DNA from: Polyangiaceae bacterium
Lineage (GTDB): Bacteria; Myxococcota_A; Polyangia; Polyangiales; Polyangiaceae
Assembly: GCA_020849655.1 (NCBI GenBank)
Contig: JADLFU010000111.1
Coordinates: forward strand, 1 to 47,978
Direction of reading: 5' to 3'
Length of the DNA stretch: 47,978 bases
How positions within the stretch are numbered: position 1 is the stretch's first letter; every line of letters starts with the position of its first letter. The translations under genes were made by a program, and so were the position numbers. Positions 40,120-47,976 of this stretch are shown here, piece after piece. The notes beneath the pieces are model-generated. The model searched no databases, was not told where the DNA came from, and saw only the letters and a program-made list of their open reading frames with translations.

Positions 40120-41082
40120 ATGCAATCTGCCGTGGCCTCGGTCCACGAGCCTCTCCCGGTCATCGGTCGCCTCCGGGCCGCGGTCGAGGGCGCCCTCGAG
40201 GGCAAGCCAGAGGTGGTCGAGCTGGCCCTGGTCGCGCTGCTAGCGGGCGGGCACGTGCTGCTCGAGGACGTGCCCGGCGTCGGCAAGACGACCCTCGCCC
40301 GCGCGCTCGCGAAGGCCATGGGCTGCGATCTGAAGCGCGTGCAGTTCACGAGCGATCTGTTGCCGAGCGACATCCTCGGCGTCTCGGTGTTCGACCAGCG
40401 CATCGGCGAGTTCACGCTGCGGCAGGGGCCGATCTTCAGCAACGTGCTGCTCGCCGACGAGATCAACCGCGCGAGCCCGCGCACGCAGTCGGCGCTGCTC
40501 GAGGCGATGAACGACGGCCAGGTGAGCCTCGACGGCCAGACGATCCCGCTGCCGCACCCGTTCTTCGTCATCGCGACCCAGAACCCGGAGGACTTCGCCG
40601 GCACCTTCCCGCTGCCCGAGTCGCAGCTCGACCGCTTCATGGTGCGGCTGAAGCTCGGGTACCCACCGCCCGCCGTCGAGCTGCGGCTCCTGCTCGACCG
40701 CGGCACCGATCGCGCCGCCGACGTGCCCTCGGTGCTCGACGCCGCGTCGCTCGTCGCGCTCCAGCGGCAGGCGGAGCGCGTCGCCGTCGACCCCGCGCTC
40801 GCGCACTATCTCCAGGCCATCCTGCAGGCGACCCGCAGCTGCACCGCGCTAGCGCTCGGCGCCTCGACGCGCGCGGGGATGAGCCTCGCCCGCGCCGCGC
40901 GGTCGCGCGCGCTCCTCCGCGGTCGCGCCTTCCTCATCGCCGACGACATCCATGATCTCGCGGTCCCCGTGCTCGCGCACCGCGTGAGGCTCGCGGCCCA
41001 CGCCGAGGGCTACATGCCGTCGCGCGAGGAGGCGGAGGGCGCGGTGCACGACGTCGTCGCCCGCGTCCCCGTCCCGCTTTGA
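40120..41082 (+). CDS. MoxR-family AAA+ ATPase
   Basis: ATG at 40120 gives 320 residues. Walker A is [10 protein letters not shown] (51-60) and Walker [12 protein letters not shown] (110-120); sensor regions [22 protein letters not shown] are typical of MoxR. The family acts as a chaperone for the assembly or metal loading of partner proteins, usually encoded next to it. Here it is translationally coupled to a DUF58 protein, the standard partner. No VWA protein is adjacent. Confidence 0.96.
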
Positions 41083-42083
41083 GCGCGTGGGGGCGCATCG
41101 GCGCGCGGCTCACGATGCCGCGCCGCCTCCGGCTGACCCGCGAGGGCAAGCTGTTCGTCGGCATCACGTTCGGCGTCGGCCTCGCGGCCATCAACACCGG
41201 GAACAACCTCCTCTATCTCCTGCTCGGGATGCTCCTGTCGCTGATCGTGATCAGCGGCGTGATGAGCGAGATCTCGCTGCGGGGGCTCACCGTCGTGCGG
41301 CGCTTGCCGGCGCGCGCGCAGGTGGCCCGCGCCCACCTCGTCGAGATCGAGGTCAGCAACGCGAAGCGGCGCATCCCGAGCTACGCGATCGAGGTCGAGG
41401 ATCTCCGCGAGGGCCAGCCCGCCGACAAGCGCTGCTTCTTCCTGAAGATCAGCCCGAGCTCCGCGCAGGTCGCCGCGTACCGGCGCACGCCGCAGCGCCG
41501 CGGGCGCGATCTGCACACAGGGTTCCGCGTCGCGACGCGGTTCCCGTTCGGATTGTTCGAAAAATCGCGCGAGATCCGCGGAGAGGGAGAGCTCGTCATC
41601 TACCCGGCCGTCGACCCGGTGCGCCTGCCGGCCGATCGAGGCGGCTCGCGCCGGCTGGGCGGCGGCGCGGTGGGACGGGGCGCGGGCGACGAGATCGCGG
41701 GCGTGCGCCCCGGCCGCGCCGACGAGGATCCGCGCGACATCTACTGGCGCAAGAGCACCGTCCCGTCGCAGCTCGTCATGCGCGAGCGCGCGCGCGAACT
41801 GAGCCCGGACGTGAGCCTCACGCTCGACGTGGCCGAGCCCTCCCCCGCGGGCGACGACTGGCCGGCGCGGTTCGAGCGGCACGTCCGCGACGTCGCGTCG
41901 CGCGCGGTGGCGCACGTCCGCCGCGGCGATCGGGTCACCATCTCGACGACCGCGGGGCAGCGCGTGCGCGCCGAGCGCGCGTCGGGCACGGATCCCTTGC
42001 TGCGCTTCCTCGCGCTCGTCGAGCCGTCGAAGGCCGACGCCGCGCCCGCGCGCCCGCGCCGCCCGCTCGCGAGGGGCGCGTGA
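41079..42083 (+). CDS. DUF58 membrane protein
   Basis: TTG at 41079 overlaps the MoxR stop as TTGA, giving 334 residues; ATG at 41115 would be an alternative. Two adjacent hydrophobic segments lie at about 26-65. The DUF58 signature is [20 protein letters not shown], with the basic Trp-Arg-Lys core. A von Willebrand-like acidic fold is expected in the remaining part. In many bacteria MoxR, DUF58 and a TgpA-type transglutaminase are encoded together; function is thought to be in cell-envelope maintenance. Confidence 0.92.
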
Positions 42084-44215
42084 AGTTCGGGCTCGTGCAC
42101 CGCGTGATGACGAACGCGCTCGCGGCGCTCGGCGTCCTCTCGCTCGTCGCGACCGGTGAGCTCGGGCGGTGGGTGAACGTCGCCATCCTGGTCGGCCTGG
42201 CCTGCGCGGTCGCGGTGCCCGAGCGCTTCGGTGACAACCCGTGGGTGCGGCGCGGCTCCCAGATCGCGCCGCTCTTGTTCCTCTCGATCCAGATCGGGCG
42301 CTGGGTCTCGGGTCGGCCGCTGCTGGAGGTGGCGGTCGAGTTCGCCGCGGTGCTGCAGATCGTCCGCGTCGCCACGCGCAGCGACTCGGCGCACGACCAG
42401 CAGGTGATCGTGCTCGCGCTCCTGCACCTCATCGCGGGCACGGTGCTCGGCGGGGGGCTCGCGTACGGCGTGTGCTTCCTCGGGTTCCTCGTCGTCGCGC
42501 CGGCCGCGCTGGTGCTGTCGCACCTGCGCCGCGAGGTCGAGGGCAACTACCGCCAGGGCGCGCGCGACCGCACCGGCCTGCCCGTCGACGTGCCGCGCAT
42601 CCTGAAGAGCCGCCGCGTCGTGGGCAAGACGTTCCTGCTCGTCACGTGCTCGCTCGCGCTGCCGATCCTGCTCTTCACCGCGGGGCTGTTCACGCTGTTC
42701 CCGCGGGTCGGGTTCCACTGGCTGATCGTGCACCAGGAGGGCGGACGGCGCGTCGGGTTCTCCGATCTGGTCGATCTCGGCAGCGTGGGGCTGCTGCGCG
42801 ACGATCCGCAGATCGCGCTCCGCGTGACCCTCCCGGACCTGCCCGAGCCTCCGCCCGACCGCGTCGCCTTGCACCTGCGCGGCACCGCGCTCGATTTCTA
42901 CGACGGGCGCGCGTGGGCGCGCACCAACGTGCACCGCGCCGCCGTCGGGCAGCTGCAGCAGATCATCCCGATCGAGCGCCGCCCCGAGCCGGACGATCAG
43001 CGCGTGACGATCGATCTCGAGGCCTTCGACCCGCCCGTCCTGTTCACGCCGCCCGGCGCCGTCGCCGTCGAGATCGTGCCGCGCACGGAGTCTCCCTTCT
43101 TGCTCGGCGTCTCGCGGCTGCGGATCGAGCGCGGCGCGGAGGGCGAGCTGCGGTACCGTGACAGCGAGGAGCGCGGCGTGCGGTACCACGCGTGGGTGTC
43201 GCGCCGCGCGCGGACGAGCGCCGCCCGCGAGGACATGTCGCGCTACCTCCAGCTGCCCCAGGGCCTCTCGCCTCGCATCTCGGCGCTCGCCGCGGAGTGG
43301 GTGGGCGCCTCGCCGCAGCCGCTCGAGAAGGCGCGCATCATCGAGCGCCGGCTCCGCGCCGAGTACCGCTACGACCGCGCGTCGCCCTCCGCCGGCACGC
43401 CGCACCCGCTCGATCACTTCCTGTTCGAGTCGAGGCGTGGGCACTGCGAGTTCTACTCGACCGCGATGGCCATCATGCTGCGCACAGCGGGCGTGCCGAC
43501 GCGCAACGTGACCGGCTTCGCCGGCGGGAGCTGGAACCGCTTCAGCCGCGCGTACACCGTCCGCCAGGGCGACGCGCACTCGTGGGTCGAGGTGTGGATC
43601 GACGGCGTCGGCTGGCAGCTCTTCGATCCGACCCCGCCGGCCGAGGCGGCCCCGCAGAGCGAGCTGCGCGGCCTGACGGCCTTCCTGCGCGACATGCTGG
43701 AGGCGACGAGCCAGCGATGGGACCGCAACGTGGTCGGCTACGACATCCACCAGCAGATGTCGCTGCTCGAGCGGCTCCGCGGGTCGTTCCGCGCGCCCGC
43801 GGGCCGGCCGGCGTTCGGCGTGCCGCCGAGCACGCTCTTCCTGTCGGTCGTCGGCCTCGTGGTCGTCTGGTGGCTCGTGCGCCGGCTGCTGCGTCGGCGA
43901 CGCGCGCTGGCGAGCCCGGAGGAGGCGCGGTCGACGCCGGCCGTCCGGGCGAGGATCGCGACGGCGCTCTACGAGGCGCTCGAGGGCGCGATGAGCGCGC
44001 AGGGCGTGCCGCGCGCGCAGGGCGTGCCGCCGCTCGCGCACGCGCGCTCCTCCGACGTCACGGCGCACCCGCTCGCGAGGGAGATCCTGGACCTGACCGA
44101 GCTGTACCTCGACGCGCGCTTCGGGCACCGCGCGCTCGACGCCGCCGAGCGGGACGCCTTCCTGCTGCGGGTCAAGCGCGTCCGGGCGCACAAGATCAGG
44201 CCCGCGCGGGCGTAG
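42080..44215 (+). CDS. TgpA-type membrane transglutaminase (DUF3488 + transglutaminase + DUF4129-like)
   Basis: GTG at 42080 overlaps the DUF58 stop, giving 711 residues. Several membrane helices occupy about 1-205. The extracytoplasmic transglutaminase core has Cys456 (RRGHCEFYS), His500 (GDAHSWVEVW) and Asp516 (FDPTPP), the intact Cys-His-Asp triad. One more helix (about 592-612, LFLSVVGLVVVWWLV) and a cytoplasmic tail with the DUF4129-like ending follow. TgpA of Pseudomonas is essential for growth and is a periplasmic transglutaminase. It is the third member of this operon and probably works with the DUF58 protein and MoxR. Confidence 0.93.
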   Translation: MKFGLVHRVMTNALAALGVLSLVATGELGRWVNVAILVGLACAVAVPERFGDNPWVRRGSQIAPLLFLSIQIGRWVSGRPLLEVAVEFAAVLQIVRVATRSDSAHDQQVIVLALLHLIAGTVLGGGLAYGVCFLGFLVVAPAALVLSHLRREVEGNYRQGARDRTGLPVDVPRILKSRRVVGKTFLLVTCSLALPILLFTAGLFTLFPRVGFHWLIVHQEGGRRVGFSDLVDLGSVGLLRDDPQIALRVTLPDLPEPPPDRVALHLRGTALDFYDGRAWARTNVHRAAVGQLQQIIPIERRPEPDDQRVTIDLEAFDPPVLFTPPGAVAVEIVPRTESPFLLGVSRLRIERGAEGELRYRDSEERGVRYHAWVSRRARTSAAREDMSRYLQLPQGLSPRISALAAEWVGASPQPLEKARIIERRLRAEYRYDRASPSAGTPHPLDHFLFESRRGHCEFYSTAMAIMLRTAGVPTRNVTGFAGGSWNRFSRAYTVRQGDAHSWVEVWIDGVGWQLFDPTPPAEAAPQSELRGLTAFLRDMLEATSQRWDRNVVGYDIHQQMSLLERLRGSFRAPAGRPAFGVPPSTLFLSVVGLVVVWWLVRRLLRRRRALASPEEARSTPAVRARIATALYEALEGAMSAQGVPRAQGVPPLAHARSSDVTAHPLAREILDLTELYLDARFGHRALDAAERDAFLLRVKRVRAHKIRPARA

Positions 44216-44221
44216 CGCCCG

Positions 44222-45133
44222 TCACTCGACGCGCAGCGGCGTCGCCATGAACAGCAGGACGAAGAGCGCGAGGCACGCGACGGCGACCGCCCTCCTGCCC
44301 GGGCCGAGCGGTTCGCCCTCGTCGGTCGGCGGATGGACGCCGCCCGACGCGCGCAGCACGAGCGCGGTCAGCCCGAACCAGAGCAGCCAGAAGGTGCTGT
44401 TCGACACGGCCGTGATCACCGCGTCGCTCGAGATCCCGTGCCCGCGCGCCCGCAGCAGGTTGCGCGCGGCGTTGACGACGAACAGCGCGAGCAGCCCGCG
44501 GTGCAGCCACCGCCCGAGCGTGTTCGCGCGGTCGCCGAGCAGCGCGTAGGCGACGTGGCCGCCGTCGAGCTGCCCGATCGGCAGGAGGTTCACCATCGTC
44601 AAGAACAGCCCCGTCCAGCCCGCGAACGCCGTCGGGTGCAGGTACACGTCGTGGCCCGCCGGGATGGGCCGCGCGAACGCCGCCTTCATCGCGAGGTAGA
44701 GGAGCGAGTCGCCCTCGATGAGCGACGGAGAGCTCGCCGGCTTCACCTCCGACAGCGACAGGCCGAGCCCGAGGAGCGGCAGCGCGAACACCATCCCCGC
44801 GAGCGGCCCCGCGGCGCCGATGTCGAGCAAGGCGCGACGAGACGAGATCCGCGACGTCATCCCGATGATCGCGCCCGCGGTGCCGAAGGGCGACAGGTAG
44901 GGCAGGGGCAGGAAATGCGGCAGCGACGCGGGCACGCCGTGCACGCGCGCCGCGACGTAGTGGCCGAGCTCGTGCGCGACGAGGATCGTGAGCAGCGGCA
45001 CCGCGAACGTCCAGCCTCGCCACGCCGGCCCCGCCTCGCCGACGTAGCCCGCGCCTGTGTGCATCACTGACAGGATTGTCAACAAGAACAGCCCGAGCGG
45101 CGCGAGCGCGCGGGACGGCCTCGCCTCCGTCAT
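44222..45133 (-). CDS. Site-2-type intramembrane zinc metalloprotease (M50)
   Basis: ATG at 45133 overlaps the FliH-like stop (ATGA), giving 303 residues. The zinc motif HELGH (54-58) lies in a membrane helix and the third ligand motif is NLLPIGQLDGGH (182-193, Asp190). GFT/SPFGTAGAIIGMTSR and LLDIGAAGPLAG are features of the EGY/S2P subfamily. There is no PDZ domain. It should cleave a membrane-embedded substrate, typically an anti-sigma factor or a lipid-associated protein; no candidate is next to it. It is the last of five overlapping genes. Confidence 0.93.
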   Translation of the reverse strand: MTEARPSRALAPLGLFLLTILSVMHTGAGYVGEAGPAWRGWTFAVPLLTILVAHELGHYVAARVHGVPASLPHFLPLPYLSPFGTAGAIIGMTSRISSRRALLDIGAAGPLAGMVFALPLLGLGLSLSEVKPASSPSLIEGDSLLYLAMKAAFARPIPAGHDVYLHPTAFAGWTGLFLTMVNLLPIGQLDGGHVAYALLGDRANTLGRWLHRGLLALFVVNAARNLLRARGHGISSDAVITAVSNSTFWLLWFGLTALVLRASGGVHPPTDEGEPLGPGRRAVAVACLALFVLLFMATPLRVE

Positions 45134-45579
45134 GGCGCCCCGGCGCTGGCGGCGAGCCGGCGCACCGCGTCCGCCACGGTGAGCTCGACGGCGCCGCGCT
45201 CGCTCGCGAGCGAGATCGATCCAGGCGCGCGCCCGGGCTCGACGAGGACGCGCGCCCCCAGCGCGGAGAGGCGCGCACAGAGGCGCGCCGCGTCGTCGGG
45301 AGAGAGCCGCGCCTCGAGGTGCAGCGACGCGCCGAGCGCAGAGAGCGCCTCGTCGAACAGGGCGTCGAGCGCGCGCGCGTCCGCCGCGAGCGCGTCGCCG
45401 ACGAGCCGCTCGGCGATCGCGCGGGCGAGCTCGAGGCACGCGGACCTCGAGCGCTCGGCGTCGATCACGATCGCGAGGTCGGTGAGCGGAGGCGTGCTGA
45501 CCTCGAACACACGCGCGCGACGGGCGCCGCTCGTCCCCGGCCCGGCCTCGAGCACGGCGCCGCGCGCGACGCGCCTCAT
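45130..45579 (-). CDS. FliH/SctL-like protein (orphan)
   Basis: ATG at 45579 overlaps the 69-aa gene's stop (ATGA); 149 residues. The central and C-terminal helices resemble the FliH/SctL (HrpE/YscL) stator family: ELARAIAERLVGDALAAD, ALFDEALSALGASLHLEA, and the final ISLASERGAVELTVADAV strand-helix. In flagella and type III secretion this protein binds and restrains the export ATPase. No ATPase FliI/SctN, ring protein or other export gene is in the window, so it is an orphan. The N-terminal helix that binds FliN/SctQ seems short. Assignment rests on pattern, not on catalytic residues. Confidence 0.55.
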   Translation of the reverse strand: MRRVARGAVLEAGPGTSGARRARVFEVSTPPLTDLAIVIDAERSRSACLELARAIAERLVGDALAADARALDALFDEALSALGASLHLEARLSPDDAARLCARLSALGARVLVEPGRAPGSISLASERGAVELTVADAVRRLAASAGAP

Positions 45580-45785
45580 GCGGGCCTCGCCTGCTGCAGC
45601 TCCCGCGCCGCGCGGGCGACGGCCGCGGCGAGGAGCGCCGCGCGGGCGCTGCGCTCCGGGGTGGACGCGAGCGCCGCCGCGAGCGGCACACGCGCGCGCA
45701 GGTGGGCCACCGTGTCTGTCTCGCCGAGCAGCGCGGAGGCCGCGACGAAGGCCTCGTCGAACGCGTCGCTGTGCGCCTCGGTCAC
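45576..45785 (-). CDS. Small 69-residue helical protein, function unknown
   Basis: GTG at 45785 overlaps the hydrolase stop as GTGA, and the stop overlaps the next ATG as ATGA. These two in-frame 4-nt overlaps are the main evidence that this is a real gene. The product is Ala/Arg-rich, predicted helical (AFVAASALLGET, AALLAAAVARAARELQQ), with no Cys and no signal. Size and position between the FliH-like gene and the hydrolase suggest a partner protein, but no homology is recognised. Confidence 0.6.
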   Translation of the reverse strand: MTEAHSDAFDEAFVAASALLGETDTVAHLRARVPLAAALASTPERSARAALLAAAVARAARELQQARPA

Positions 45786-46621
45786 GCGCGCGCCTCCCAC
45801 CGGCCGTCGCGCTCGACGGCCCGGCCCTCCGCCGCGAGCTTGTCGAGGTGCGCCTCGAGCGACAGCTCGGCGAGCGGCCACGCCGCGGCGGGCGTGTCGT
45901 CGTAGGCGTGCGGCAAGAGCTCGGCGACCGATGACAGAGGGCGCGCGAGCAGCGCCGCCGCGACCTTGGCCTCTCGCATCAGGCGGTGCGCGACGTACCT
46001 GTCGAAGGTGCGGGAGGGCTCCGCGATCGGCGCGCCGTGCGCCGGCAGGGCCAGCGTCGCGCGCCACGACGACAGGCGCGCGAGCTCGATGAGGTACCGC
46101 GCCATGTCGCCGTCGCCGCGCGCGATCAGGATCGTGCCCTCGCTCGCCACCATGTCGCCGACCACGAGGACGCCGAGCGCGCGCTCTCGCAGGCAGAGGT
46201 GCCCGGGCGCGTGACCTGGAGTGTGGGCGACCTCCCAGCGCTGCGGCGTCGGCCCCGCGAGCTCGAGCACGTCGCCGTCGTCGAGCTCGCGCGACACGCG
46301 GCCGTCGATGCGGCGCGCCGTCTCCCTGTGCGCCCACAAGGGGACGCCGAGCGCGTCCGAGAAGAACGCGGCCCCGCCCACGTGGTCGGGGTGGTGGTGG
46401 GTCGCGAAGATCGCGACGAGCCGCCGCCCCGCGGAGGCGAGGCCGCGCGCCCACGCGAGCCACGCTGCGCGCTCATCGTCGTAGGGCGTCGCCGGCTCCA
46501 CCAGGAGCACGTCCCGCCCGCCGAGCGCGTAGCTGTTGGTGTGGGTCGCCGGCGGCAGCGTCGGCGTCCGCGCGCTCCAGGCCGCGACGCCGGGGAGGAT
46601 GTCGCGCGCGCCCGTGATCAC
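45782..46621 (-). CDS. Metallo-beta-lactamase fold hydrolase (LACTB2-like)
   Basis: GTG at 46621 overlaps the lipoprotein stop (GTGA), giving 279 residues. The metal motif is THHHPDH (74-80, HxHxDH), followed by HTPGHAPGHL, GDMVASEG and a final PAHG. The C-terminal 60 residues look like the helical extension of LACTB2/glyoxalase-II-like members. These enzymes hydrolyse thioesters, phosphodiesters or RNA; the target is not evident. It is the second of five overlapping genes. Confidence 0.9.
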   Translation of the reverse strand: MITGARDILPGVAAWSARTPTLPPATHTNSYALGGRDVLLVEPATPYDDERAAWLAWARGLASAGRRLVAIFATHHHPDHVGGAAFFSDALGVPLWAHRETARRIDGRVSRELDDGDVLELAGPTPQRWEVAHTPGHAPGHLCLRERALGVLVVGDMVASEGTILIARGDGDMARYLIELARLSSWRATLALPAHGAPIAEPSRTFDRYVAHRLMREAKVAAALLARPLSSVAELLPHAYDDTPAAAWPLAELSLEAHLDKLAAEGRAVERDGRWEARA

Positions 46622-47976
46622 AGCGGGCAGGGGACCTGCTCGTCGCGCCAGACGCCGGCCGCGCACCTGCGCTTCATGAAGGTCGACGTGCACGAGGCGC
46701 CGTACGTGCAGGTGAGCCCGTCCGTCTTGCACGCCTGGCCGAGGTTCGGCGCGATCGCGGGGCAGGGCTGCGTAGCGGCGCCCGCGCAGGTCCACCTCGG
46801 CGTGCCCATGCACGGGCCGCCCGCGCACGCGGTGCACACGCAGCTCGCGCCGCCGCCGAGGTCGCACACCGCCTCGTTCTGCGTGCATGACCCGCCGGCG
46901 TCCGCCACGGCCTTCGGGCAGCCGTCGACACCCGGGACCACGGGCGCGGGGCACGCCGCTGGCGCCGTCGACCAGCCCGCCTGGGTGCACGCGACGCGCG
47001 TGCGGCAGCCCGGCGCGAGCTGCTGGCCGTACTCGCACAGCTGGTCGAGCTCGGGGCAGGGGCCCCCCTGGGGAGGCGTCGATGGGCACGGGGCGGCCTT
47101 CTTCGTGACCTTGCAGTGGCCGTCCTCGCCGCACTTGGCGGCGAGCTCCGACGGGAGCTGCGCCGCGCACTTGTCGGTGCACGGGCCGAGGCCCGCCCCG
47201 CACACCTCGAGCTCGTAGGCCTGCACCTGGTCCGCGGCGATCGCGACGTACTGGCTCGCGTCGAGCTTCTGGCAGTTGCAACACTGGTTGGCGGCGTGCA
47301 GCGCGCAGTCGGCGTCGGAGGTGCACGCGGAGACCGGGTGCTTCGTGACGTCGACCACCTGGCACTCGTTGTTCTTGCACATGGCGCTGAGCGCCGGGTT
47401 CGAGCTGCCAGCGCAGTCGGGGCACGGCTGCGGGCTGGGGCACACGTCCTCGAAGTGAGCCTGCACCTTCTTGTAATTCACCGCGTCGAGGTCGGCGGCC
47501 GTCGGCGTCGAGCAGACCCCGCAACAGGTGCTGGCGGCCAGCAAGCACTCGCCGGGCTTCGCGCACAGCGACCACTCCCCGGTGGCCGTGCCCTTGCAGC
47601 TGCCGGGGCTGTCCTCGACGTTGCACGCCGCGTTGCACGGGCAGATGTTCGCCCCCTTGCAGGTGCCGCCGGCGCCGCAGTCGTCGTCGTCCCAGCAGCG
47701 GCCGGAGACCTTCTCCTTGCACACGCCCTGTGCGCAGTTCTTCCCGGGGCCGCAGGCGGCGTCGCTCGCGCACGCGCAAGAGGGGGAGCCGGCTGCGCCG
47801 CTCGCGCCCGCGCCGCTCGCGCCCGCGCCGCCCGCCTGCCCGCCCGCGCCGCCCCGGCCTCCTTGTTGCGCGCCTGCCTGGCCCGCGCCCGCCGCGCCGC
47901 CCGGGCTCGCCTCGAACGTCTGGCCGCCGCACGCGACCGCGAGGGCCGCCCCGAGCACGAAGGAAAGCTTGTTCAT
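46618..47976 (-). CDS. Cys-rich lipoprotein with Gly/Ala linker
   Basis: ATG at 47976 lies two bases from the right edge, giving 452 residues. The signal ends LAVAC, Cys16 lipidated, Gly at +2. A Gly/Ala/Gln linker (about 24-64) is followed by more than 40 Cys in repeated modules such as CASDAACGPGKNC, CPCNAACNVED and CTSDADCALHAANQCCNC. There is no catalytic motif. The fold is probably disulfide-rich and external, as in other Polyangia surface proteins. It is the first gene of the overlapping operon, which ties it to a hydrolase, a FliH-like protein and a membrane protease. Confidence 0.78.
   Translation of the reverse strand: MNKLSFVLGAALAVACGGQTFEASPGGAAGAGQAGAQQGGRGGAGGQAGGAGASGAGASGAAGSPSCACASDAACGPGKNCAQGVCKEKVSGRCWDDDDCGAGGTCKGANICPCNAACNVEDSPGSCKGTATGEWSLCAKPGECLLAASTCCGVCSTPTAADLDAVNYKKVQAHFEDVCPSPQPCPDCAGSSNPALSAMCKNNECQVVDVTKHPVSACTSDADCALHAANQCCNCQKLDASQYVAIAADQVQAYELEVCGAGLGPCTDKCAAQLPSELAAKCGEDGHCKVTKKAAPCPSTPPQGGPCPELDQLCEYGQQLAPGCRTRVACTQAGWSTAPAACPAPVVPGVDGCPKAVADAGGSCTQNEAVCDLGGGASCVCTACAGGPCMGTPRWTCAGAATQPCPAIAPNLGQACKTDGLTCTYGASCTSTFMKRRCAAGVWRDEQVPCPL

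Follow-up and report, generated by a model that had tools for sequence, protein, structure and literature searches.

The DNA analysed here, called the window, is a stretch of 47,978 nucleotides from a Polyangiaceae genome (G000 below), a draft assembly of 307 contigs with an estimated contamination of 4%. At one end of the window, five open reading frames (ORFs) on the minus strand form a string in which all four junctions are 4-nt GTGA or ATGA overlaps (Table 1). This string had been described by a sequence-only reading of the window, and both its ORFs and its junctions were confirmed. Such overlaps are also found at 6 of the 25 other same-strand neighbour pairs within the window; thus, they indicate tight packing of the five genes rather than one function. 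The GTG start of the gene for the metallo-beta-lactamase-fold (MBL) hydrolase matches that of its homologues. The gene for the putative lipoprotein was taken by the sequence-only reading as a member of the operon. Its ORF is present, but it begins 2 bases from the contig end and its position is not conserved in relatives, most of which have a thiolase (acetyl-CoA acetyltransferase) gene there. On the other side, a plus-strand run at 40132-44215 converges on the gene for the site-2-protease-type (S2P) metalloprotease. Judged by sequence, its products resemble a MoxR-type ATPase, a DUF58-type protein and a membrane protein of transglutaminase type, and the run looks ordinary.

Table 1. Coordinates of the genes of the five-gene string in the window and of SctJ-type gene pairs in loci of relatives
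Feature	Coordinates	Strand	Evidence
Cys-rich putative lipoprotein, 452 aa	46618..47976	-	signal sequence ending LAVAC; no Pfam match
MBL-fold hydrolase with BLACT_WH domain, 279 aa	45782..46621	-	Lactamase_B 85.1 bits; BLACT_WH 46.6 bits
Four-helix protein (predicted), 69 aa	45576..45785	-	model, pLDDT 88; hhalign to longer upstream proteins
FliH/SctL-like protein, 149 aa	45130..45579	-	Pfam matches of relatives; AlphaFold model; Foldseek 5B0O
S2P-type M50 intramembrane metalloprotease, 303 aa	44222..45133	-	Peptidase_M50 75.1 bits; HELGH and QLDGG
SctJ-type and Mla-type ABC ATPase gene pair	L255 7671-9076		
SctJ-type and Mla-type ABC ATPase gene pair	L258 7228-8732		
SctJ-type and Mla-type ABC ATPase gene pair	L260 7209-8758		

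The 149-aa protein matched the Pfam family FliH (PF02108) with 18.0 bits (E=0.0028), below the cut-off of 24.1 bits. A Pfam FliH search of G000 gave no match, and a sequence search of the PDB with the 149-aa protein found nothing. A Pfam search of this genome alone would therefore have suggested that no FliH is present. A relative in locus L006 reached 36.9 bits, above the cut-off, and 11 of the 12 members of the alignment matched Pfam FliH at E<=0.01, the best at 2.4e-15; HrpE/YscL was matched by 6 of the 12 rows. In the AlphaFold model, the C-terminal domain of the 149-aa protein was predicted with confidence. The top Foldseek match of the protein was the FliH-FliI complex 5B0O (E=1.1e-4, probability 1.00), followed by the stalk subunit E of V/A-ATPase. 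The VIA Z-scores of these two structures, 8.8 to 5B0O_E (84 residues at 3.9 A) and 9.3 to V/A-ATPase E (114 residues at 6.9 A), are tied within 1. Because the window copy lies below the Pfam cut-off, its identity as FliH rests mainly on its relatives and on the fold. The FliH-like proteins of relatives are 200-235 aa long and have a coiled-coil-like, alanine/glutamate-rich, helical-looking N-terminus; this region is absent from the window protein, where alignment A1 is gapped. A FliH/SctL fold, with the C-terminal stator domain present, is thus supported by profile matches and by the predicted structure. This agrees with the sequence-only reading, which had named the protein as FliH/SctL-type, and the Foldseek match to 5B0O provides a structural counterpart.

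The order of the FliH-like gene followed by the S2P gene, mostly with a small gene upstream, is kept in more than 20 Polyangia loci, so that it extends beyond one strain. The S2P gene lies downstream of the FliH-like gene in all 12 family genomes examined, and the same order was seen in 11 further loci, a set that is biased because it was found via S2P. In most relatives, the MBL hydrolase gene lies upstream of the pair, and the usual order is acetyl-CoA acetyltransferase, MBL hydrolase, small protein, FliH-like protein and S2P. The pairing is not invariant: S2P genes without an adjoining FliH gene were found in L001 and L003, and FliH genes without an adjoining S2P gene in G034 and L171. The protease itself has the motifs and the score expected for M50 peptidases (the Peptidase_M50 cut-off is 27.2 bits). 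It is probably a conserved neighbour and not part of an export machine. For the hydrolase and the protease alike, no sign of a function shared with the FliH-like protein was found.

In 11 of 12 family genomes, the gene for the 69-aa protein sits directly upstream of the FliH-like gene. Other families have clustered non-flagellar loci in which the gene before FliH codes for a longer protein, often with an HPSWL motif (the examples read had 113 to 305 aa); in flagellar clusters this position is occupied by FliG. In an hhalign comparison (E=4e-6, probability 87), the small family aligned with the N-terminus of these longer proteins. The 69-aa protein is probably a shortened version of the protein that clustered relatives encode at the SctK/FliG position. 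A structure search had been proposed for this product. Its model has four helices, and a fold search with this model against the PDB gave no significant match. SctK identity found no support for the 69-aa protein and its longer homologues: the Pfam models YscK and OrgA_MxiK were unmatched at E<=1, and a PDB profile search gave no match. Only the position of the gene points to an equivalent of SctK. When the phylum was searched with the long upstream proteins (A4), just 3 of the sampled Polyangia were matched, with one weak match elsewhere; with so few matches, no link to the type III secretion system (T3SS) called T3SS* of Myxococcus was shown through these proteins.

The sequence-only reading noted that FliH/SctL-type proteins usually act on flagellar or type III export ATPases, and that such a system is absent here. 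The absence is true of the window, but it is false for the genome, as type III parts are encoded on other contigs of G000. A FliI/SctN ATPase on contig C58 scored 410.5 bits, above the TIGR01026 cut-off. In the PDB, it matched SctN/EscN and FliI with up to 289 bits, and F1 subunits with 165 bits or less. Its Walker A motif is intact (SGAGKST) and its N-terminus is shortened. A divergent FlhA/SctV is encoded on C112, FliP and FliO on C131, a 353-aa SctQ-type protein with a single FliMN_C domain on C189, and a SctJ-type short putative lipoprotein of 224 aa on C37, the last with 24.7 bits against a cut-off of 24.4. Thus SctN, SctV, SctR, SctJ-type and SctQ-type members of a non-flagellar T3SS set are all present in G000, and they sit on different contigs, not in one cluster. 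FlhB/SctU was not found in G000 or G048, where a draft assembly or divergence could hide it; it was found in G094, G102, G054, G068, G091, G012 and G099. A FliF-type ring, a FliM-plus-FliN pair and a flagellar-type FlhA were not found in G000. This indicates that the set is not an ordinary flagellum.

The type III genes are scattered in relatives as well, where they lie hundreds of kilobases from each other. In G094, which is assembled in 5 contigs, no two of the genes for FliH, SctQ, FlhB, FlhA, SctJ, FliP and FliI are closer to each other than 246 kb. Several of the scattered genes have conserved surroundings of their own. The divergent FlhA gene is directly preceded by a FIST-domain gene in seven of the compared loci (e.g., L087 9268-10284). 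FIST is a sensory domain, and a link between FIST and FlhA is possible. In three genera, the SctJ-type putative lipoprotein gene is immediately followed by one for an Mla-type ABC ATPase (Table 1). The SctQ gene adjoins a small lipoprotein gene. Just upstream of the scattered FliI ATPase gene in L088 (6924-8740) are a pyrE-like gene and three bactofilin-like ORFs; a possible GTG start of the ATPase gene overlaps the stop of the pyrE-like gene. These conserved neighbourhoods, together with the single copies, make contamination an unlikely source of the contigs that bear the parts. Other arrangements were also observed. In G012, the scattered set coexists with a flagellar FliH-FliI-FlhA cluster, and in other families the FliH-like gene is directly upstream of FliI.

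We then compared the presence of these parts in 114 Polyangia genomes. The FliH-like protein was found in 70 of them, the ATPase C-terminal family in 92 and FHIPEP in 104; these counts are uncorrected for shared ancestry, and the FliH profile also catches flagellar FliH. The ATPase was present in all 70 genomes with a FliH-like match, and none of the 22 genomes without the ATPase had one. Fourteen genomes have FlhA and lack the ATPase, and all of these lack the FliH-like protein too. In family f1, the scattered FliH-like gene was present in 12 of 12 genomes with a non-flagellar FliP and absent from two, G061 and G104, whose only FliP is of the flagellar type. In the ATPase tree, flagellar sequences were separated from the rest (support 100/99) and the eight scattered ATPases formed one clade (support 95/92). 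A row from G046, first labelled flagellar, grouped with the non-flagellar sequences. The G000 ATPase is on a long branch, which makes its exact place in the tree less sure. A separate pattern was observed in family f9 (G095, G097, G100, G103 and G108; genomes of 11-13 Mb), in which a divergent FlhA and FliP are kept and no FliI or FliH was found; in G108, FlhB, FliMN_C and YscJ/FliF were also not found. The f9 set may be a remnant, or else an export gate that has no ATPase.

From the fold and homology of the 149-aa protein, the parts encoded in the same genome, the strict co-occurrence of FliH with the ATPase and the single clade of scattered ATPases, we conclude that the 149-aa protein is likely to be the SctL/FliH-type stator of a dispersed, non-flagellar type III apparatus, which is perhaps needleless by analogy with relatives in Myxococcus. 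With similar confidence, we think that the genes of this apparatus are spread over the genome, alone or in pairs, in this family of Polyangia, and that the three other products of the operon (S2P, MBL hydrolase and lipoprotein) are probably neighbours rather than machine parts. In such an apparatus, the C-terminal domain of the FliH-like protein would dock on the ATPase hexamer and connect the hexamer with SctQ, beneath the FlhA export gate and at the SctJ-type inner-membrane ring. The ATPase would deliver substrates to the gate, through which they would cross the inner membrane, and the 69-aa protein would help anchor the cytoplasmic platform. The more specific proposal of a working needleless type III machine, with genes scattered almost singly across the genome, an arrangement maintained through the family, and with the 69-aa protein replacing the platform linker, has in our view a little less than an even chance of being right.

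A different role had been proposed by the sequence-only reading: no longer tied to an export ATPase, FliH would act as the adaptor of a module for envelope processing that also includes S2P and the MBL hydrolase. The S2P gene does follow the FliH-like gene in the 12 family genomes and in the S2P-derived loci described above, which speaks for such a module. However, an ATPase is encoded in every genome with the FliH-like protein, either gene occurs without the other beside it (L001, L003, G034), and other scattered parts likewise have conserved but unrelated neighbours. Moreover, the accelerated divergence of FliH, FliI and FlhA described below is not seen in MBL and S2P. No support for the module was found, FliH follows the ATPase (70/70), and on co-occurrence a function as adaptor for S2P or MBL was rejected; we regard the module as a whole as very improbable. 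We give slightly less weight still to the idea that the FliH-like protein serves another rotary ATPase, like the V/A-type stalk subunit E. The fold is common to subunit E, and the VIA scores are slightly higher for subunit E than for 5B0O, although tied within 1, but sequence profiles name FliH and HrpE/YscL and not subunit E, homologues adjoin FliI in other families, and presence of the FliH-like protein tracks the type III ATPase.

A more serious alternative concerns the state of the apparatus in G000. FliH of G000 is 28% identical to its relatives, whereas the relatives are 45% identical among themselves; the corresponding values are 54% and 72% for FliI, and 36% and 71% for FlhA. Controls from the same operon behaved differently, with 58 vs 58% for MBL and 50 vs 51% for S2P. 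Judged from these sequence comparisons, the faster divergence is as compatible with decay as with adaptation. Along with the lack of the coiled-coil-like region and the undetected FlhB, it fits either erosion or altered function in the G000 lineage, and the apparatus in G000 may be eroding and losing function. The apparatus could then be a decaying remnant here, in which the FliH-like protein, the ATPase and FlhA, though still encoded, have ceased to make up a functional exporter. The large f9 genomes, which keep FlhA and FliP without ATPase and FliH, would also be in line with this. On the other hand, every detected gene has an open frame, the Walker A motif of the ATPase and the gene overlaps are intact, and G048, which is similarly accelerated, still keeps several genes. 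We consider decay in G000 a real possibility, although the less probable one. It is compatible with a stator of a dispersed type III apparatus as the explanation for the family and differs from it for G000, so that possible erosion there leaves the reading for the family unaffected.

Type III systems are as a rule identified by the clustering of their genes. Because they are usually sought in this way, a scattered machine is easily missed. A vertically inherited dispersed version would show that a type III apparatus can persist without clustering, and the scattered set provides a testable part list in bacteria without flagella. A search of the open-access literature yielded no account of a scattered T3SS in Polyangiales. 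In a survey that covered 17 genomes, T3SS was assigned mainly to Myxococcales and not to Polyangiales (PMC10196010), and several SctV and SctR copies were noted in Myxococcia and Polyangia (PMC11509652). An early-branching Myxo NF-T3SS was described in Cystobacterineae, in clustered short and long loci (Abby and Rocha, PMC3459982), and to lyse prey, Myxococcus xanthus uses its needleless T3SS* together with Kil, a Tad-like pilus (PMC12075869). The scattered set may be related to this T3SS* used by Myxococcus in prey lysis (PMC12075869).

Compared with known systems, the scattered set shares with Myxo NF-T3SS/T3SS* (MXAN_2434-2464) a non-flagellar export gate, an ATPase, a SctJ-type ring and a sorting platform in Myxococcota (PMC3459982, PMC12075869). 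It differs from Myxo NF-T3SS in that its genes are dispersed, FliO is beside FliP, and the gene for the 69-aa protein lies before FliH. The 149-aa protein has the stator fold of flagellar FliH (5B0O); unlike flagellar FliH, it is found in a genome without the flagellar set, and the scattered ATPases form a clade apart from flagellar FliI. In the Chlamydiales NF-T3SS, type III genes are also spread over several loci and have been kept together by descent (PMC3459982). However, Chlamydiales have at least four loci with several genes each, whereas in the scattered set almost all parts occur singly, and the genomes are of a size seen in free-living bacteria.
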